The notes below the pieces were generated by a model. It ran no database searches. It was not told where the DNA came from and saw nothing but the letters and a program-made list of their open reading frames with translations. Below are positions 36,665 to 53,600 of a DNA stretch of 64,000 nt, in pieces. Positions within the stretch are counted from its first letter, which is position 1, and every line of letters begins with the position of its first letter. Origin of the DNA: Sphingobium sp. TKS (lineage in GTDB: Bacteria; Pseudomonadota; Alphaproteobacteria; Sphingomonadales; Sphingomonadaceae); assembly GCF_001563265.1 (NCBI RefSeq), contig NZ_CP005084.1, forward strand, positions 53,501 to 117,500. The letters run 5' to 3'. The position numbers were made by a program, and so were the translations under genes.

Positions 36665-37444
36665 ATGGATCGGCGCATGGATATGCGATTTGATCTGGCG
36701 CAAAAGGCGCAGAGCGATGCGGCGTTCGTCATGGCGGCGGCGCCGGCGTCCAAGGGCTGTAGCGGGCAATATTGCGACCGCTGCGAGGTGCGCGATCAGG
36801 CGATCTGCGCCGATCTTGACGAACAGCAGCGCGTCGCGCTGAACCGGATCGGGCGGCGGGTATCGTTGCAGGCCGGACAGACCGTGATGTGGGAAGGCGA
36901 CAGCTCCACGCTGGTCGCCAATGTGATCGAGGGGACGCTGAAGCTGTCCACCTCCACCGGCGACGGGCGGGAGCAGATCGTCGGCGTCGTCTATGCCTCG
37001 GATTTCATTGGTCGCCCCTTCGGTGCGCGGACGCCGCATAGCGTCACGGCGCTGACCGATGCGCGGCTGTGCCTCTATCCGAGGGGCGCCTTCGACGGCT
37101 TCGCGCGCGAACATCCGGCGCTGGAGCATCGGTTGTTGCAGCGGACGCTGGACGATCTCGACCGGACCCGGGCGTGGATGCTGCTGCTGGGGCGGAAGAA
37201 TGCGCGGGAGAAGGTGGCGACCTTGCTGCTCGATATGCACCGGCGGCTGCGGGCGGACCGGGAGGGTGTGATCGAACTGCCCCTGTCGCGGCAGCAGATA
37301 GCCGATGTGCTGGGGCTGACCATCGAGACGGTTTCCCGCCAGATCAGCGATTTGAAGCGGTTGGGTGTGATTGTGCTGGCCGGACGGCGCGGGGTGCGCA
37401 TCGTCGATGCCGATCGGCTGGAAGGCATGGCCGAGGGGGAGTGA
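36665..37444 (+). CDS. fnrN: FNR/FixK-type Crp-family regulator with N-terminal cysteine cluster
   Basis: A 259-aa Crp/Fnr protein. The N-terminus has four cysteines (Cys32, 37, 40 and 48 in GCSGQYCDRCEVRDQAICAD), suited to an oxygen-labile Fe-S cluster as in FNR and FnrN. The cyclic-nucleotide-like barrel spans about 60-160. The HTH (LPLSRQQIADVLGLTIETVS followed by RQISDLKR, about 205-235) has the E-x2-S-R recognition pattern that reads TTGA half sites. The start could also be codon 5 or 7. Its expected targets, the boxes before ccoN and ompW, lie on either side. IS110/RIT insertions now separate it from the cbb3 genes. Symbol assigned by similarity. Confidence 0.85.
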   Translation: MDRRMDMRFDLAQKAQSDAAFVMAAAPASKGCSGQYCDRCEVRDQAICADLDEQQRVALNRIGRRVSLQAGQTVMWEGDSSTLVANVIEGTLKLSTSTGDGREQIVGVVYASDFIGRPFGARTPHSVTALTDARLCLYPRGAFDGFAREHPALEHRLLQRTLDDLDRTRAWMLLLGRKNAREKVATLLLDMHRRLRADREGVIELPLSRQQIADVLGLTIETVSRQISDLKRLGVIVLAGRRGVRIVDADRLEGMAEGE

Positions 37445-37764: not shown

Positions 37765-38541
37765 TTACGCCATGGCCGCGACCGGAGCCTTGTAATCCTC
37801 TTGCCTGGTGAGCAGCGCCCAGACGATCCGTGCCGTCTTGTTGGCGAGCGCCACCGTCACCAGCATGCGCGGCTTCCGGCCAAGCATCTGCTCCAGCCAT
37901 GATCCCTTCGGTGCACCCCGCTTGCTTGCCTGCAGGACGACGGCGCTGCTGCCGATGATCAGCAGGCGTCTGAGCGTACGCTCGCCCATTTTCGAGATGG
38001 CACCCAGCTTCTGCTTGCCGCCGGTCGATCGTTGTAACGGCGCCAGGCCAAGCCATGCCGCAAAGTCTCGCCCCTTCGCGAAGGTTTCCGCCGGGGGCGC
38101 CAGTGCCGCGATCGCCGTGGCAGTGATTGGTCCCACGCCGGGGATCGTCATGAGTCGTCGGGCAACGGCATCTTCACGGGCCCGGCGGGCTATTTCCTTG
38201 TCGAGGTCCTGGATCTTGCCGTCCTGTTCCTCCAGCAAGCTCAGCATCAGTCGGAACATGGCCCTGGCCGATTCCGGGACTGACGCCGCCATCTCATCTT
38301 CAAGCAGATCGCCCAGCATCGCCACATGCGAGGGGCCTTTCGGCGCCACCCAGCCATATTCGGTCAGATGGCCGCGGATCGCATTGATCAACTGGGTCCG
38401 CTGACGCACCAGCAGATCGCGGGTCCGGAAAATCATGCCCGAAGCCTGCTGCTCCTCCCCCTTGATGGCCACGAACCGCATATTCGGGCGCTGCGCCGCC
38501 TCGCAGATCGCCTCGGCATCAATGGCATCATTCTTGTGACG
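37765..38541 (-). pseudogene. IS110-family transposase, C-terminal portion (split by RIT element)
   Basis: This 258-codon segment contains RHKNDAIDAEAICEAAQRPN, continuing the RuvC-like DEDD domain, then the transposase_20 domain: MTIPGVGPITATAIAALAPP, FAAWLGLAPLQRSTGGKQKL, and GAISKMGERTLRRLLI with its serine-region motif. Its missing N-terminus lies at 42396-42650. Joining 42650-42396 to 38541-37765 restores one in-frame protein of 343 aa, a normal IS110 length. The gene is inactivated by insertion. Confidence 0.88.
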
Positions 38542-38542
38542 T

Positions 38543-38577
38543 TTCACTAATCATCAGGTTCTCAAAATGCGAAGGAA
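38543..38577 (+). repeat. RIT left terminal inverted repeat
   Basis: A 35-bp sequence starting ttcactaatcatcaggttct, perfectly inverted at 42340-42374. It includes tgcgaagga, which recurs near the right end at 42290-42298 and may be part of the recombinase-binding core. Confidence 0.9.
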
Positions 38578-38686
38578 TGCGGGCTCGGTGTAGGAAATCC
38601 GCGCATTTCTGGCTTGGATCGGCAATTTGCTCCGCATTATTTTGCTGCGAACCTCTGCGGTCGTTTGACCAGCAGAGGAGGAATTG

Positions 38687-39919
38687 ATGTTGCAATCCGA
38701 GCATGAGCTGCTCACCGAGCTCAGAGCCATACTGACAAACCAGCGTTACAATCCGACGGTAATCCGAAATCACTGTACCTATGCGCAGGAGTTTCTCGAC
38801 TATCTCCAGCATCGAGGAATCTGTGTCACGGACGTGACTGAGGCGCAAGTTGAGCGATATCTGGATTATGCGATCGCGTTATTCCGGAAACGTCGTGGCA
38901 GGCATCCCAGCGAGCGCTGGCACGCAGTTCCGCGATCTGCAATTCACGCGTTGCTACGGCTTGGGCAGGGTCAGTGGCCACCCTCTGAAAAAGTAACATG
39001 CGACGCCGATGCGCTGCGGATTACGATCTGCAATGAATATGAAACCTGGCTTCGTGAGGAGCGTGGCCTTGCCCAGGCCAGCATCGACGCGTTCCTGTGG
39101 GAAGCGCGCTACTTCCTTGCCTGGCAACTCAACCGGTGCGGGGCCGATGGCCTCGAGGCAGTGACCGTGGGTGAAATTGACAGCTACATGGACTTGCGCG
39201 GTTCGAAACTGACGCGCAGTTCTCTGAAATCCACAGCCGAGCGGCTGCGCTCGTTGCTGCGTTACCTGCATTGGACGGCCCGCGTTGCGGAAGACCTGAC
39301 ACCGCATATCATCGCGCCGCGGCTCTACGCTTACGAAGGGGTGCCGTCGATTTTGGAGCGCGACCAGATCGCCGCGGTTCTGGCAAGTGTGAGCAAGGAC
39401 AAGACGGCTGCCGGTTTGCGTGACCACGCGATATTACAGGTCCTCGCCACCTATGGCCTTCGCGCAAGCGAAGTCCGCAACATGCGGATCGAAGACATAG
39501 ACTGGCGGGCCGAAGTCATCCGCGTCCGCCACAATAAAACGCAAGCCTACACGTTCCTGCCATTGATGGGACCGGTTGGCGAAGCGATCCTCGCCTATCT
39601 GCGGTCTGGTCGGCCCGCCACTGATGCCAGGGAACTCTTCATCCGAACGCGCGCGCCCTATTGCAAGCTTGAGAAGATATACAGCCTGATTCGGCAGCGG
39701 CTCCGGGATGCCGGCGTCAAACCCTCAGGCAGGAGCGGGCCTCACATCTTCCGTCACGCTCGTGCGACCGAGTTGCTGCGCGCCGCAGTGTCGAAAAAGG
39801 TAATCGGTGATCTGTTGGGACATCGCTCCGTTGGATCGACGGCGCCCTATCTCAAGCTCGCCACGGAGGATCTGAGAGCCATCGCTCTGGATGTGCCGGG
39901 ACCGGAGGTGCTGGCATGA
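38687..39919 (+). CDS. ritA: Tyrosine recombinase RitA
   Basis: A protein of about 410 aa (ATG 38687 preceded by GAGGAGG; TTG 38684 also in frame). The N-terminal SAM-like core-binding domain (about 110-215) is followed by the catalytic domain: Arg in YGLRASEVRNMRIEDIDW, HxxR in HIFRHARATELLR, His in LLGHRSVGSTAPY, and that Tyr as nucleophile. The first about 100 residues form an extra N-terminal domain (LRAILTNQRYNPTVIRNHCT). It is the first gene of the trio; its stop overlaps the ritB start (ATGA). Confidence 0.92.
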   Translation: MLQSEHELLTELRAILTNQRYNPTVIRNHCTYAQEFLDYLQHRGICVTDVTEAQVERYLDYAIALFRKRRGRHPSERWHAVPRSAIHALLRLGQGQWPPSEKVTCDADALRITICNEYETWLREERGLAQASIDAFLWEARYFLAWQLNRCGADGLEAVTVGEIDSYMDLRGSKLTRSSLKSTAERLRSLLRYLHWTARVAEDLTPHIIAPRLYAYEGVPSILERDQIAAVLASVSKDKTAAGLRDHAILQVLATYGLRASEVRNMRIEDIDWRAEVIRVRHNKTQAYTFLPLMGPVGEAILAYLRSGRPATDARELFIRTRAPYCKLEKIYSLIRQRLRDAGVKPSGRSGPHIFRHARATELLRAAVSKKVIGDLLGHRSVGSTAPYLKLATEDLRAIALDVPGPEVLA

Positions 39920-41283
39920 CCTCCCGTTGGCCCGATTCCGATCGCGCGTGCATTGGCCGCTTTGTCTCAAGCCTTGATCTGCGCAATCCCAAAAGCCGCG
40001 TCTGCTATCAACAGGTCCTGCATAGCTTCCAGGATATTGTCGAACGGCATGGAGCGCTCGATCAGCAAGCCCTGCAGGCCTGGTTGCGCGAATTAGCCAC
40101 TCGCTGGGCGACATCTACCCTTCTGCATCGCACCCGAATCATCGACCGGTTCCTCGATCATCTGCTCGCAACCGGGGGGATCGATCACCACCCGGTCAAA
40201 GCTCTACGCGAGGCATGTCATATCAAGCAGTGCATGCCGATCTGGCGCGCGCTGATATCGCGTGATCCAGAACAGGCTCTTGCCAGACTGCGCAAGCCCA
40301 AACCGTTCGGCAGCGTGCTGGGCGAGGCCATGGCCGAACATGTCGCGATGATGCGGCGCAGGGGGTACAAATATACTTCGCAACCCGAGCGGTTCTTGCA
40401 GTTCGACCGGTTCCTACAGTTGAATCCGCAACTGGAAACCGAGCCGCTGAGCGTTATGATCGATCAATGGGCGGCCACAAAGGGCACCCGCAACCATGCA
40501 TATGAACGCGAAAACCTCGAACGTATCTTCGCAAAAATCCTACGGCGCCGCGACCCGTCAGTTCCTCGGCGTCGGCCGGATCCGCGACCCCGGAAAGAGG
40601 TGCGCAAGCAGTGGCGCCAGCCCCATATTTACTCTCCTGGTGACGTTCGGCGAATGCTCGACATTGCCCGTTCGTATCCCTCGCCACGCGCAACCCTTCG
40701 ACCATTGTGCATCTACACCATGCTGTTGCTGGCCTACTGTGCGGGTCTGCGACGCGGAGAACTGGCCCGGCTGGATCTTGGTGACGTTAATCCCCGAGAC
40801 GGCACCATCACGGTTCGGCAGACCAAGTTCTTCAAGACCCGAATCCTGCCGCTCCCCGACAGTGTGATGAACGAGTTGCGGACCTACATCGCAGCCCGAC
40901 GTCGGGCTGGTGCATCGCAGGATCCGCACTCCGCCCTGTTCTGGCACGTCCAGGGTAGGTCCCGCTACACGCCCGAAATGATAACCTGGGTGCTTACAGA
41001 CGTCATACGTCGCGCCGGGTTGAAGCCATTGCAGGGGCACGACGGACCTCGCGTTCATGATCTTCGGCACTCGATGGTCGTGAACCGCATCCTTGAATGG
41101 TACCGTCTGGGGATCAACCCGCAGGATCGGCTGCCGTTCCTCGCGACCTACCTCGGACATCGAGATATCAACTCCACGCTGGTCTACATCACCGTTACGC
41201 AGGATCTGCTGCATCTCGCGAACGAACGCTTCAGGGCCCTGGGCGCGCCATGCCTCAATCCTGAACGGGAGGTGCGGCCATGA
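39916..41283 (+). CDS. ritB: Tyrosine recombinase RitB
   Basis: A 455-aa protein. Catalytic residues: Arg in YCAGLRRGELARLDLGDVN, HDLRH with HxxR, GHRD in YLGHRDINSTLVY and the terminal Tyr. The N-terminal core-binding part (about 110-210) contains SQPERFLQFDRFLQLNPQL. It starts in a 4-nt overlap with ritA and ends in a 4-nt overlap with ritC, so the three are co-translated. It acts with RitA and RitC on the element's inverted repeats in the known RIT model. Confidence 0.92.
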   Translation: MTSRWPDSDRACIGRFVSSLDLRNPKSRVCYQQVLHSFQDIVERHGALDQQALQAWLRELATRWATSTLLHRTRIIDRFLDHLLATGGIDHHPVKALREACHIKQCMPIWRALISRDPEQALARLRKPKPFGSVLGEAMAEHVAMMRRRGYKYTSQPERFLQFDRFLQLNPQLETEPLSVMIDQWAATKGTRNHAYERENLERIFAKILRRRDPSVPRRRPDPRPRKEVRKQWRQPHIYSPGDVRRMLDIARSYPSPRATLRPLCIYTMLLLAYCAGLRRGELARLDLGDVNPRDGTITVRQTKFFKTRILPLPDSVMNELRTYIAARRRAGASQDPHSALFWHVQGRSRYTPEMITWVLTDVIRRAGLKPLQGHDGPRVHDLRHSMVVNRILEWYRLGINPQDRLPFLATYLGHRDINSTLVYITVTQDLLHLANERFRALGAPCLNPEREVRP

Positions 41284-42284
41284 GCAGGACCAATCCATTC
41301 CCGGAACTGATGCGCGCATTCTTCTACGAATGGCTCGTTGAGCAGCGCAATGCGTCGGTCAACACGGTCCGTTCCTACCGCGACACTTGGCGGCTCTTCC
41401 TCCGGTTCGTCGCTGATCGCGCGGAAAAGAAGGTTGCGATGATCTCGCTGGCCGATCTGACTGCCGCGCAGGTCACGGCGTTCCTGAGGCACGCCGAGCA
41501 CGAGCGCGGTGGTACGATCGGTACCCGCAACTGCCGGCTTGCTGCAATCCGCAGCTTCTTCAACTTCGTGGCTACCAGGGATCCCGCATCGATCGCGCAA
41601 TGCGTCGAAATCCTCAACATCCCGATCAAGCGGGCGCCGGTATCGGAACCCTGCTATCTGGATCCGCCGGAAGTGGCGGCGATCCTTGCCCAGCCAGACC
41701 AATCGACCCTAAAAGGCATGCGCGACCATGCGTTGCTCTCGTTCCTCTACAACAGCGGCGCGCGAATACAGGAAGCGCTCGATGTGTGCCCCGAAGCGAT
41801 CCGGTTCGATAGTCCCAGTTGCGTCCGACTTATGGGCAAGGGCCGAAAAGAGCGCATCTGCCCGCTTTGGCCGGAAACCGTACTGTTGCTGGAAAGGCTG
41901 CTTGACCGGCAGCCGCGAGCACCAGACCAGCGGCTGTTCGTTAACCGCTACGGCGAGCCGCTCAGCGCTTCGGGCGTCCGGTTCAAGCTTGCCGCCTATG
42001 TGAAGGCGGCGGCTGAAACCATGCCGTCGCTTCAAACAAAGCACGTAACGCCTCACAGCTTCCGCCACGCGACCGCCGTCCACCTTGTATCGGCGGGCGT
42101 GGACATCACGGTCATCCGCAGTTGGCTTGGACATGTGAGTCTCGACACCACCAATCACTATGCCAAGGCCAATCTGGAAACGAAGCGGAAGGCGCTGGAG
42201 CAGGTCGCCGTGCCGTCGGCGACGGGGCGTTCACCATCCTGGAAACGCGATACGAGCCTGCTCGCCTGGCTTGATACGCTGTAA
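41280..42284 (+). CDS. ritC: Tyrosine recombinase RitC
   Basis: A 334-aa protein, the shortest of the trio and closest to XerC/D-type architecture. The N-terminal SAM-like domain spans about 1-105 (LMRAFFYEWLVEQRNASVNT). Catalytic residues are Arg in LYNSGARIQEALDV, HSFRH (HxxR), WLGHVSLDTTNHY with His and the nucleophilic Tyr. The stop codon sits in the subterminal inverted repeat at 42283-42293, so coding and end sequences overlap slightly. Confidence 0.92.
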   Translation: MSRTNPFPELMRAFFYEWLVEQRNASVNTVRSYRDTWRLFLRFVADRAEKKVAMISLADLTAAQVTAFLRHAEHERGGTIGTRNCRLAAIRSFFNFVATRDPASIAQCVEILNIPIKRAPVSEPCYLDPPEVAAILAQPDQSTLKGMRDHALLSFLYNSGARIQEALDVCPEAIRFDSPSCVRLMGKGRKERICPLWPETVLLLERLLDRQPRAPDQRLFVNRYGEPLSASGVRFKLAAYVKAAAETMPSLQTKHVTPHSFRHATAVHLVSAGVDITVIRSWLGHVSLDTTNHYAKANLETKRKALEQVAVPSATGRSPSWKRDTSLLAWLDTL

Positions 42285-42339
42285 AATAATGCGAAGGAGT
42301 GTTGGGCAGAAACGCCGATAATCGGCCGATCTGTCCACG

Positions 42340-42374
42340 TTCCTTCGCATTTTGAGAACCTGATGATTAGTGAA
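42340..42374 (-). repeat. RIT right terminal inverted repeat
   Basis: Perfect inverted copy of 38543-38577. Twenty-one bases (42375-42395), including gtaatg and cattac arms, lie between it and the resumed IS110 frame. Confidence 0.9.
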
Positions 42375-42395
42375 GTAATGCTCACCTATCCATTA

Positions 42396-42650
42396 CTTGA
42401 CGAACGGCTTCACATAGGCTGGCGGGATCAGGCGAACATCATGGCCCATATCCCTGAGCTCGCGTGCCCAATGGTGCGCGCCGCCACAAGCCTCCAGCGC
42501 AACAACGCATCGCGGCTGCCCTGCAAAGAAATCCAGCAGCTTTGTCCGGCTGATCTTTCGGCTGAATAGCGCCCGCCCACGTTCATCCACGCCATGCGCA
42601 TGGAAAACATTCTTCGCGATATCGAGACCGATCGTGCTAACCTCCAACAT
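42396..42650 (-). pseudogene. IS110-family transposase, N-terminal portion
   Basis: These 85 codons begin at the ATG at 42650 (MLEVSTIGLDIAKNVFHAHG). They carry the first acidic residue of the DEDD domain (GLDIAKN) and the PPAYVKPFVK motif just before the break. The rest of the gene is at 37765-38541. No RIT sequence is needed to explain the frame. Confidence 0.88.
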
Positions 42651-42779: not shown

Positions 42780-42854
42780 TGCAGAAGGGCGGTTCCGCAG
42801 CGAAGGACGCCGCAAAGCCTTTGACGGGGAAATCATTTAAAAAGCGAGTTGGCT

Positions 42855-44513
42855 ATGGAGCAACTGGTTTGGAAGACGGGCGGCTGGTTCGCGCTCGCGA
42901 CGCTGGCCTTTCTGGCGGCGCTGGCGGCGGCGGACTTCGGCTTTGCCGTGCATATGGGGATCGTGTGCGCCGCCGCGCTGGCCGTGGCGGTGCTGACGAT
43001 GCGGCATGCCGATTATGAGGCGATCACGCGCGGGCTGCTGAAGATGCCCGAAAGCCAGGGGAAATATGATGACGATCCGATCCGCTGGGGCGTGATCGCG
43101 ACCGTCTTCTGGGGCTTGGCGGGCTTTCTCGCGGGGCTGTACATCGCGCTTCAACTTGCCTTTCCGGCGCTGAACCTGGGGCTTGAATATACCAGCTTCG
43201 GGCGGCTGCGGCCGTTGCATACCTCCGCCGTGATCTTCGCCTTTGGCGGCAATGCGCTGATCGCCACCAGCTTTTATGTCGTGCAGCGGACCTGCCGGGC
43301 GCGCTTGGCCTTTCCGGCGCTGGCGCGGTTCGTCTTCTGGGGCTATCAGCTTTTCATCGTGCTCGCGGCGACCGGCTATCTGCTGGGCATTACCGAGGGC
43401 AAGGAATATGCCGAGCCGGAATGGTATGTCGACCTGTGGCTGACCATCGTCTGGGTCGCCTATCTGGTCGTGTTCGGCGGCACCATCCTGCGCCGCAGCG
43501 AACCGCATATCTATGTGGCGAACTGGTTTTACCTGAGTTTCATCCTGACGATCGCGATGCTGCACATCGTCAACAATCTTTCCATGCCGGTCAGCCTGCT
43601 CGGTTCCAAGAGCTACAGCGCCTTCGCGGGCGTGCAGGATGCGCTGACGCAGTGGTGGTACGGGCATAATGCGGTCGGTTTCTTCCTGACCGCGGGCTTC
43701 CTGGCCATGATGTATTATTTCGTGCCCAAGCAGGCGGAGCGGCCGGTCTATAGCTATCGCCTGTCGATCATCCATTTCTGGTCGCTGATCTTCCTCTATA
43801 TCTGGGCGGGGCCGCACCATCTCCACTATACCGCGCTGCCCGACTGGGCGCAGACTTTGGGTATGGTCTTCTCGGTCATGTTGTGGATGCCAAGCTGGGG
43901 CGGGATGATCAACGGGTTGATGACGCTGAACGGCGCCTGGGACCGCATCCGCACCGATCCGATCATCCGTATGATGGTGATGGCGCTGGCCTTTTACGGC
44001 ATGAGCACCTTCGAAGGTCCGATGATGTCGGTGAAGGCGGTCAACAGTCTCAGCCATTATACCGACTGGACCATCGGCCATGTGCATAGTGGCGCGCTGG
44101 GGTGGAACGGCCTCATCACTTTCGCTTGCCTCTATTATCTGACGCCACGACTGTGGAAGCGCGAGCGGCTGTACAGTCTTCGCCTGGTGAACTGGCACTT
44201 CTGGCTGGCGACGCTGGGGATCGTTCTCTACGCCGCGTCGATGTGGGTCGCGGGCATCATGCAGGGGCTGATGTGGCGCGAATATGGCAGCGACGGCTAC
44301 CTCGTCTACGCCTTCTCCGAAGTGGTGAGCGCCATGTTCCCCATGTACCTGATCCGGGCGGCGGGTGGCCTCATGTACCTGAGCGGCGCGATCATCATGG
44401 CCTGGAACATCGGCAAGACCATCGCGGGCAGCCCGCTGCGCGAGGAAAAGCCGATGAACGACGCCGCCTATGACGCCGACGCCGACCGGCCGCTCGTCAC
44501 CCAGCCTGCCTGA
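42855..44513 (+). CDS. ccoN: cbb3-type cytochrome c oxidase subunit I
   Basis: A protein of about 552 aa (ATG 42855; TTG 42849 opens the frame two codons earlier). It has about twelve membrane helices. Haem and copper ligands are visible in [39 protein letters not shown] and [12 protein letters not shown]. It is the catalytic subunit reducing oxygen at the high-spin haem b3/CuB centre, with high oxygen affinity. First gene of the ccoNOQP operon, preceded by a perfect FNR/FixK box. Confidence 0.96.
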
Positions 44514-50655: not shown

Positions 50656-53600
50656 ATGACGAACCCGCCCCCCTTCGCTGATTTCGCCCCCGCCATTCGC
50701 GTACAGTCGCCGCTCCGCCACGCCATCACCGCTGCCTATCGTCGCGATGAGGCGCGGTGCATGGCGCCCCTGCTCGAAGCCGCCGCGCTGCCAGACGCCA
50801 TGCGGCAGGCGGCCCGGGAAACGGCGCGCAGGCTGGTGACGACGCTGCGCGCCAACCGCAATGGCAGCGGAGTCGAGGCGCTGGTGCAGGAATATTCGCT
50901 CTCCAGTCAGGAGGGGGTGGCGCTGATGTGTCTCGCTGAAGCGCTGCTGCGCATTCCCGACGATGCGACCCGTGATGCGCTAATCCGCGACAAGATCGCT
51001 CACGGCGACTGGGGTGGGCATCTGGGCGGCGGCAAGTCGCTGTTCGTCAATGCGGCGACCTGGGGACTGGTGGTTACGGGGAAGCTGGTCGGCAGCGTGG
51101 ATGACCGGAGCCTCGGCGCGGCGCTGACCCGGCTGGTGGCGCGTGTGGGCGAGCCGGTTATCCGGCGAGGCGTGGACCTCGCCATGCGGATGATGGGCGA
51201 GCAGTTCGTGACCGGCGAGACGATTGCCGAGGCGCTGAAGCGCGCACGGGTACAGGAGGCGAAGGGCTTCCAATACAGTTATGACATGCTGGGCGAGGCG
51301 GCGGCGACGGCGGCCGATGCGGCGCGCTATCTGGCCGATTACGCCCAAGCGATCCACGCCATCGGCAGGGCGTCGGACGGGCGCGGCGTCTATGCGGGGC
51401 CAGGTATCTCGATCAAGCTGTCGGCGCTGCATCCGCGCTATAGCCGCGCCCAGGCGGAACGGGTCATGGGGGAATTGCTGCCCCGCGTGAAGGAACTGGC
51501 GCTGCTGGCCAAGGGCTATGACATCGGCCTCAACATCGATGCGGAGGAAGCGGACCGGCTGGAATTGTCGCTCGACCTGCTGGAGAGCCTGGCGCTGGAC
51601 CCTGACCTTGCGGACTGGAACGGCCTTGGTTTCGTGGTGCAGGCCTATGGCAAGCGCTGCCCCTTCGTCATCGACTGGATCGTCGATCTGGCGCAGCGGG
51701 CCGGGCGGCGGATCATGGTGCGTCTGGTCAAGGGCGCCTATTGGGACGCGGAGATCAAACGGGCGCAGGTCGACGGGCTGGCGGATTTCCCGGTCTATAC
51801 GCGCAAAGTGCATACGGACGTCGCCTATATCGCCTGCGCGAAGAAGCTGCTGGCGGCGACGGATAAAGTCTTCCCCCAGTTCGCGACGCATAATGCGCAG
51901 ACTTTGGCGACTATCCATCATCTGGCCGGGCCGGATTTCAGGCTTGGCGACTATGAGTTTCAGTGCCTGCACGGCATGGGCGAGCCGCTCTATGAGCAGG
52001 TGGTAGGGAAGGGGAATCTCGACCGCCCCTGCCGCATCTATGCGCCGGTCGGCACGCATGAAACGCTGCTGGCCTATCTGGTGCGGCGCCTGCTGGAAAA
52101 TGGCGCGAACAGTTCCTTCGTGCACCGCATTGCCGACCCGGCGGTGCCCGTGGAGGAGATGATCGCAGACCCGGTCGAGATGGTGCGGGCGATGCCGCAT
52201 CCGGGCACGCGGCATCCGGAGATTGCCTTGCCCAGTGAGCTATATCCCGACCGGCGCAATTCCGAAGGGATCGACCTTAGCGATGAGAATGCGCTGGCGG
52301 CGGTGACGCAGGCGCTGAAGGAAAGCGTGCAAATCGGTTGGACGGCGGCGGCGTCGGGTGAGGAAGGCACGGCGCGGTTGGTGCTTAACCCAGCCAACCG
52401 GCGCGATGTCGTGGGCACGGTGTTCGAGGTGTCGGCAGACTATGCGCGGGATGCGGTTCTTCGCGCTGGCGACAGCGAATGGGCGCAAGTGCCGGTGGAG
52501 GAACGGGCCGTGATATTGGAGCGGGCCGCCGACGCGATGCAGGCGCGCATGCCGATCCTGCTGGGCCTGATCGTGCGGGAGGCGGGCAAGTCGCTGCCCA
52601 ACGCCATAGCCGAGGTGCGGGAGGCGATCGATTTCCTGCGCTATTATGCGGCCCAGGCGCGGGCGGCTTTCGGCCCGGCGCAGGCGGCTTTGGGGCCGGT
52701 CGTCTGCATTTCGCCCTGGAATTTCCCGCTGGCGATCTTCACCGGGCAGATCGTGGCGGCGCTGGTCGCGGGCAATCCGGTGCTGGCCAAGCCCGCCGAG
52801 GAAACCCCGCTGATCGCGGCAGAGGCGGTGCGGTTGCTGCATGAGGCGGGCGTGCCGGGCGACGCGCTGCAACTGATCCCCGGCGCGGGCGAGATCGGCG
52901 CGGCGCTGGTGGCGGCGCCGCAGACCGCCGCGGTGCTGTTCACCGGATCGACCGAGGTGGCGCGGTTGATCCAGCGGCAACTGGCATCCCGCCTCTCCGC
53001 ATCGGGCAAGCCCATCCCCCTGATCGCGGAGACGGGCGGGCAGAATGCGATGATCGTCGACAGCTCCGCGCTGGCCGAACAGGTGGTGGCGGATGTGATC
53101 GCCTCGGCCTTCGACAGCGCGGGGCAGCGCTGTTCGGCGCTGCGCATCCTTTGTTTGCAGGAGGATGTGGCGGACCGGACGCTGGCGATGCTGAAGGGCG
53201 CGCTCCGGGAATTGCGCATCGGGTGGACCGACCGGCTGGCGGTCGATATCGGCCCCGTCATCACCGAGGATGCGAAGGCCGGGATCGAGGGGCATATCGC
53301 CTCGATGCGCGCTCTGGGCTGCTCCGTGGAGCAGCAAACACTCCCGGACCAAGCGGCGCACGGCAGCTTCGTCCCGCCCACCATCATCGAGATCGACGAC
53401 ATAGCGCAACTCAAGCGCGAGGTTTTCGGGCCGGTGTTGCATGTCATACGCTTTCCCCGCTCCGGGTTGAACGCGTTGATCGATGCGATCAATGCGACCG
53501 GCTATGGCTTGACCTTCGGCCTGCACACGCGGTTGGACGACACCATCGCGCAGGTGACCGGGCGGGTTAAGGCGGGCAATCTCTATGTGAACCGCAACGT

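Follow-up and report, generated by a model that had tools for sequence, protein, structure and literature searches.

The 64,000-nucleotide stretch of the Sphingobium sp. TKS genome analysed here (the window; positions 53,501 to 117,500 of contig NZ_CP005084.1) contains an IS110 transposase gene that is split by a RIT element, a unit of three tyrosine recombinase genes, ritA, ritB and ritC. Comparison with relatives makes it very probable that the RIT is a mobile element with strict target specificity, a two-armed joint, a reversible orientation and a 6-bp exchange that carries a tag of the host gene. The case is built by sequence comparison, which brings out a fixed insertion site, a palindromic core on a constant side of the target, a free orientation of the element, two empty alleles of genes for strawberry-notch-like (SNO) helicases, a host-derived tag in one copy (L006), and a target class that goes with the RitA tree. 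Fixed codon-pair targets in mobile-element and plasmid genes, a two-armed joint and a 6-bp exchange together form a scheme that links RITs to strand-biased circularizing integrative elements (SEs) and to Tn554.

Descriptions of RIT elements go back to about 2009. In the available portion of one account (Van Houdt 2012, PMC3414803), they consist of overlapping ritA, ritB and ritC genes in about 3.5 kb, with a 28-29 bp inverted repeat and an overlapping palindrome, and the window element has the same three-gene layout, inverted repeat and palindrome. Its features, with borders set by a rule drawn from the empty SNO alleles discussed below, are as follows.

38548..42401, plus strand: inserted RIT element, 3854 bp, bounded by the empty-site rule, with four sibling copies in the same genome.
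38542..38547, minus strand: 6-bp overlap, sense GTGAAA (Val-Lys), on the bare (C-terminal) side, taken as the target's own by analogy from the SNO empty-site rule and IS110 relatives.
42396..42401, minus strand: 6-bp overlap, sense GTCAAG (Val-Lys), on the N-terminal side, assigned to the element by the empty-site rule.
42370..42375, plus strand: internal overlap of 6 bp, GTGAAG (Val-Lys), which separates the core from the right inverted repeat and is interpreted as the fossil of an earlier target.
42376..42395, plus strand: palindromic core TAATG-CTCACCTATC-CATTA, about 20 bp, at the right end of the element.
38543..38577, plus strand: left inverted repeat, read as 35 bp, the initial 5 bp of which are part of the overlap.
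42340..42374, minus strand: right inverted repeat, read as 35 bp, the final 5 bp of which are part of the internal overlap.
38687..39919, plus strand: ritA, tyrosine recombinase.
39916..41283, plus strand: ritB, tyrosine recombinase.
41280..42284, plus strand: ritC, tyrosine recombinase.
42402..42650, minus strand: IS110 transposase gene, N-terminal part, ending ...YVKPF.
37765..38547, minus strand: IS110 transposase gene, C-terminal part, starting VKRHKNDAIDAEAI...

The nesting of the RIT in an IS110 transposase gene, proposed in a first-pass annotation of the window, is supported by protein family matches, by the repeats and by the restored frame. RitA, RitB and RitC each match Pfam Phage_integrase (PF00589), and RitA has two weak SAM-like matches (8-61 and 116-196), both under the curated cut-offs; two core-binding domains in RitA and an extra C-terminal helix in RitC are described in the available part of PMC8138268. 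Neighbouring rit genes overlap by 4 bp, as in the three-gene arrangement by which RITs are recognized, and the 35-bp inverted repeats, which had been placed correctly, lie in the size range of RIT termini (about 28-35 bp) and sit within a longer repeat pair (40 nt, 95%). Both flanks match the NCBIfam IS110 transposase model NF033542, the N half over 1-87 and the C half over 91-342, and joining 38541 to 42396 does restore an uninterrupted frame of 343 amino acids. Beyond the right repeat the sequence reads GTGAAG-TAATG-CTCACCTATC-CATTA-CTTGAC, with the gtaatg/cattac arms noted earlier at 42375-42380 and 42391-42396.

Five locations in the genome match the window RIT over at least 3833 bp, all in different IS110 genes and all interrupting the same codon pair. 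The core lies at the ritC end in four copies and at the ritA end in the fifth (L026), whose IS110 gene is reversed relative to the element as compared with the other four. Four of the five copies have identical interiors; in L025, compared by length, the ritA-ritC stretch is 2 bp longer than in its four siblings, and a frameshift is possible there. A second RIT type, 68% identical, is present as three copies in SNO helicase genes and behaves alike. Near-identical copies at five sites, together with empty alleles of sites occupied in relatives, bear on mobility as sequence evidence, and the view of a RIT insertion offered by the window, once called rare, recurs in four further copies in the same genome and in many relatives elsewhere.

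The survey of relatives comprised 111 loci: eight from this genome, six from a search of 298 genomes of the family, 18 from plasmids (of 65 matching records), and 79 from GTDB, these being the best 79 of 128 confirmed matches in one scan. Ten loci with no full ritA or ritC match were excluded and 101 were parsed, in 76 of which one or both target halves end close to the junction. The other 25 are mostly contigs that end at the element, and also include L065, L090, L099, L117, L119 and L125; the target class of L090, L099, L117 and L119 was assigned by eye for the tally of overlaps and events. Ten sides where the target match ends more than 130 bases from the edge, two of them from L065, were excluded from the junction counts. 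Matching of flanks to target halves gave four target classes, IS110, SNO helicase, ArdC and IS66, and in each target gene that was assignable the insertions share a single codon-exact site. Distinct events number 49 among the 50 fully parsed insertions.

All 66 N-side junctions counted carry the core (33 in IS110, 21 in SNO, nine in ArdC and three in IS66), as against one of 65 C-side junctions, and this sole hit, in L110, is false, lying inside the repeat. An earlier, looser scan, which found the core at 60 of 66 N-side junctions and its absence at 62 of 63 C-side junctions, was superseded, its end pattern having misplaced some borders and core variants having been missed. Chance occurrence of the core is ruled out by control windows, where the pattern was found in 9 of 1003 cases (9 of 1178 in the earlier scan). 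The core lies on the N-terminal side of the target regardless of the direction of the element: where both halves of one gene are present (48 loci), the N half is faced by the ritC end in 27 and by the ritA end in 21. The asymmetric ends that the first-pass annotation reported in the window are thus systematic across relatives. Rearranged loci obey the rule as well: in five, where a RIT lies between two N halves, each end carries a core (L064, L068, L091, L108, L130), and in two, where it lies between two C halves, neither end does (L054, L142); these loci, with L119 and L183 added by eye, likely reflect recombination between RIT copies, and hence rearrangement of genomes or plasmids. In L064, L065 and L119 the flanks are inverted copies of one sequence, and an assembly error is possible. 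L183 apparently lies between two istA C halves (IS21), with no core by eye.

Six base pairs separate the repeat from the core, and the core from the target, at nearly every parsed junction; L130, with 8 bp on one side, is an exception. In the 26 complete IS110 insertions 72 of 78 overlaps encode Val-Lys and three Val-Arg, with variation mostly at third codon positions, and even the internal overlaps of these insertions, which touch no target, encode Val-Lys in 23 and Val-Arg in one. The ten distinct internal 6-mers of SNO insertions all encode A, G, S, T or Q followed by I or V. The fate of these 6 bp upon insertion can be read from the SNO allele of L006, the flank of which was matched in 43 plasmid records; among five examined, four are unoccupied (L169-L172) and one is occupied (L173). 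The empty site (L169-L172) reads TGG-GCGATC-ATTCAC, L006 reads TGG-GGCATC-core...repeat-GCGATC-ATTCAC, and L034 reads TGG-TCGATC-core...repeat-GCGATC-ATTCAC, with flanks identical to those of the empty L169 at 1296 of 1296 positions in L006 and 695 of 695 in L034. Insertion therefore costs the target nothing: its own 6 bp are still present at the bare repeat, and another 6 bp, contributed by the element, lie beside the core. L006 and L007 each have an insert of 3832 bp, and L199, an uninterrupted allele of the L007 target, has CAGGTG at the site, with flanks matching at 989/990 and 893/893 (99.9%). Two insertions in one IS110 allele (L057 and L058) have the bare-side 6 bp in common and differ in the core-side 6 bp.

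Over the 3583 bp from ritA to ritC, L006 matches L007 at every position. The internal overlap of L006, CAGGTG, is the native sequence of the L007 host gene, and its core-side overlap, GGCATC, is the internal overlap of L007. This pattern is expected if a circle from L007, holding the 6 bp of the L007 bare side, integrated via its other arm. The tag pattern is repeated from L024 (bare side GTCAAG) to L026; three of five relatives of the L024 target are readable, two of which have GTCAAG (L188, L189) and the third GTGAAG. The GTCAAG that the window's circle would have carried is likewise what the bare side of L024 would supply. In Sphingobium DEHP117, the bare-side GCCAGG of L087 turns up again as the internal overlap in L085, L086 and L121 and as the core-side overlap in L117, and recurrence of this 6-mer among the DEHP117 copies suggests that it too is a tag. 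Donor and daughter copies coexist in each genome, which fits copy-out without proving it. The coupling sequences of Tn916 are also short flanking sequences held in a circle joint, derived from loosely chosen sites, whereas RIT tags are mostly synonymous codons of one fixed motif.

From these patterns we infer a circle, an order of strand events, roles for the three enzymes, catalysis, and a possible retention of the donor (copy-out). RitA, RitB and RitC would join both ends of the element into a circle with the joint inverted repeat-6 bp-TAATG-10 bp-CATTA-6 bp-inverted repeat, which presents two 6-bp crossover sites facing each other around the core. The enzymes would then recombine one of the two crossover sites with the fixed codon pair of the target, in the window the Val-Lys before the KNDAxDAEA motif of IS110. 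The polarity of the 6-bp overlap would decide on which side of the target the core comes to lie; this side would be fixed because the overlap is not palindromic, and because the circle offers the overlap twice, in opposite directions, the element could point either way. The target's 6 bp would remain at the bare repeat and the circle's 6 bp would go beside the core. A new circle would take the bare-repeat 6 bp of its copy, so that each move would carry a two-codon tag of the last host gene, and such tags may reveal which RIT copy begot which. A more speculative and somewhat doubtful extension is that copy-out proceeds via a strand folded at the joint, where the two arms would form the stem of a hairpin and the 10-nt spacer its loop, and a cut on either side of the stem would give either orientation. 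Crossover sites folded from one strand are known from CTX phage and integron cassettes. Should folded-strand copy-out be true, the two-codon tags would make transposition pedigrees readable from assembled genomes.

By analogy with the SNO empty sites, the insert in the window would extend from 38548 to 42401, and not from 38542 to 42395, the borders that the first-pass annotation had considered known to the base. The two intervals are equal in length (3854 bp) and are shifted by six bases because each end has a 6-bp overlap, one target-derived and one carried in. The earlier borders describe a plain insertion whose asymmetric ends are fixed and in which no overlap is exchanged; the full 343-amino-acid frame across the 38541/42396 join speaks for it. 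However, the 38547/42402 join gives the same 343 amino acids because both 6-mers (GTGAAA and GTCAAG) encode Val-Lys, the SNO empty alleles indicate a cut at the opposite edge of these 6 bp, nine uninterrupted IS110 relatives read GTG or GTA rather than GTC, and the core at the ritA end in L026 runs counter to fixed asymmetric ends. A plain insertion is very unlikely, and its borders are rejected on the SNO empty-site rule. The nine relatives, at most 79% identical to the window IS110 over the matched stretches and with no insert at the site, have GTGAAG (seven) or GTAAAG (two), which favours GTGAAA as the native sequence of the window IS110, as support and not as proof. The 21 bp beyond the right repeat, whose presence in an intact IS110 relative was to have told against the annotation, are absent at the site in all nine. 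No target duplication had been seen, and this holds, but the two ends bear related, non-identical 6-mers. What had been overlooked is the site-specificity, the 6-bp overlaps, and a movable 21-bp core that is placed by the polarity of the target and not by that of the element.

Several observations weigh against integration of a two-armed circle as a full account of these insertions, and those on orientation favour an alternative in which RITs integrate in a single orientation and the gene block between the inverted repeats is later inverted. The SNO family has two spacer types, each in both orientations, and in L063, where the core sequence differs, an AGGTGA motif is opposite to that of L062 and L075; a flip of the spacer or an inversion between the repeats may occur at times. 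The near-perfect 35-bp repeats would permit inversion of the gene block, which would also leave the core on the N side. But inversion predicts that the spacer is reversed relative to the genes, whereas its direction relative to the element is constant in both orientations (L026; L059 and L060; L087 and L117), and in three lineages with one spacer type all five copies that have their core at the ritA end agree with their siblings in spacer direction. Nor does inversion readily explain the donor tag at the unused arm in L006 and L026. A single orientation followed by inversion is therefore unlikely, and repeat-repeat inversion is rejected on spacer direction as the main source of either orientation, with the SNO family and L063 as contrary cases. 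It can hardly be the case that RITs insert widely and survive only in dispensable mobile genes, with the fixed site a by-product of selection or homologous recombination. The assigned targets are indeed insertion-sequence genes or genes common on plasmids, but survival explains neither codon-exact placement in IS110 genes that often have only 45-65% protein identity to the query halves nor the 6-bp exchange seen against empty alleles.

The other contrary points to circle integration concern individual loci and the reach of the comparisons. No identical intact or empty allele of the window IS110 was found, and the assignment of the window overlaps is one of analogy; off-code overlaps exist, namely ATCAAG and ATAATG in L115, GTGAAC in L116, and GCCAGG in ArdC. 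Proposed donor-to-daughter directions rest on 6-bp identity, and circle, excision and transposition are deduced rather than observed. L065, between two ArdC N halves, has no recognizable core and was excluded from the core count because its target matches end more than 130 bases from the edge. In L061 and L097 the core and one target half are lost, and both of these different RITs stop at one and the same base of the repeat, where they abut a shared foreign sequence (tgcagagcgtttttagc...) that may be the end of a further insertion sequence. L053 and L054, on plasmids of Sphingomonas sp. MEA3-1, each have one terminal repeat missing where they adjoin apparently the same IS110 C half, the result either of a shared deletion and later exchange between plasmids or of an assembly artefact. 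L185 (41% RitC identity), a RIT of Acidithiobacillus apparently inserted at the HELGH motif of ArdC, occupies a different site in that gene, with the core apparently on the C-terminal side (by eye). The core side is therefore set per class, and placement on the N side holds for the four classes studied and not for RITs generally.

Target choice follows the recombinase tree. A quick RitA tree (78 rows, 50 of them different) requires three changes for the four target classes, the minimum, as compared with a shuffled mean of 33.5, a count that near-copies help to keep low. IS110 (SH-aLRT 98), SNO (100) and IS66 (100) each fall on one side of a branch, and ArdC does not. The sequences show RITs as parasites of other elements, which they hit at conserved coding motifs. 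Tn554, with TnpA, TnpB and TnpC, inserts in radC; the targets assigned here are IS110, SNO, ArdC and IS66. Among distant RITs, L150 (45% RitC identity), L185 and L186 (about 41%) have repeats and a core at one end only, as judged by eye, and in L184 no repeat was found. A scan of viral contigs gave seven loci, one of them RIT-like (L150, 45%).

A transposase gene and radC had already been reported to harbour RITs, in an account that, in its available portion, also reports sequence variation at the ends with no convincing fit to the usual binding sites, and mobility as undemonstrated (PMC3414803); that portion does not describe a fixed codon site, a core-side rule, a 6-bp exchange or a host tag. 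RIT target specificity and movement are listed as not tested in the available text of a 2023 paper (PMC10214605), which also mentions coupling sequences of the Tn916 type. According to the same text, the circle of an SE takes up the 6 bp adjoining one end; when it integrates, into one of few target sites, these 6 bp end up on one side, opposite the 6 bp retained from the target. RIT relatives in SNO genes follow this 6-bp fingerprint/footprint rule, which makes RITs SE-like in their working rather than members of the SEs. The SEs of that text have four core genes (intA, tfp, intB, srap) as against the three recombinases of RITs, and no fourth SE-type core gene was found by eye between the window repeats; the SE 6 bp go preferentially to the same element end, whereas the two-armed RIT site is apparently usable in both directions. 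Tn554, likened by its description there, shares a 6-bp footprint, several transposition proteins and target specificity, but it has tnpA, tnpB and tnpC with imperfect terminal repeats, and that part of the paper describes no two-armed core for it (PMC10214605). Thus the RIT insertion rule resembles SE and Tn554 transposition, but with an attachment site that is two-armed and reversible. The searchable literature, which lacks most subscription papers, contains no prior description of a RIT rule of site, core, 6 bp and tag, and novelty is provisional; nor does it contain a paper that combines IS110, tyrosine recombinase, inverted repeat and RIT, or one that combines strawberry notch, tyrosine recombinase and transposase.

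Fifteen GTDB contigs consist of a single RIT (about 3.8 kb) that ends at or near the repeats (L071, L073, L078, L080, L084, L092, L105, L112, L113, L124, L126, L128, L135, L146 and L149). These are probably collapsed multi-copy elements, and RIT copy number may therefore be underestimated in short-read assemblies. Within the window element, a subterminal pair of inverted repeats (20 nt, 85%) at 38630..38649 (plus strand) and 42277..42296 (minus strand) forms possible candidate binding sites for the recombinases. The IS110::RIT composite itself lies between neighbours at window positions 36665-37444 and 42849-44513, which, by sequence resemblance, we take to be genes for an Fnr-like regulator and a cbb3-type oxidase subunit, respectively.

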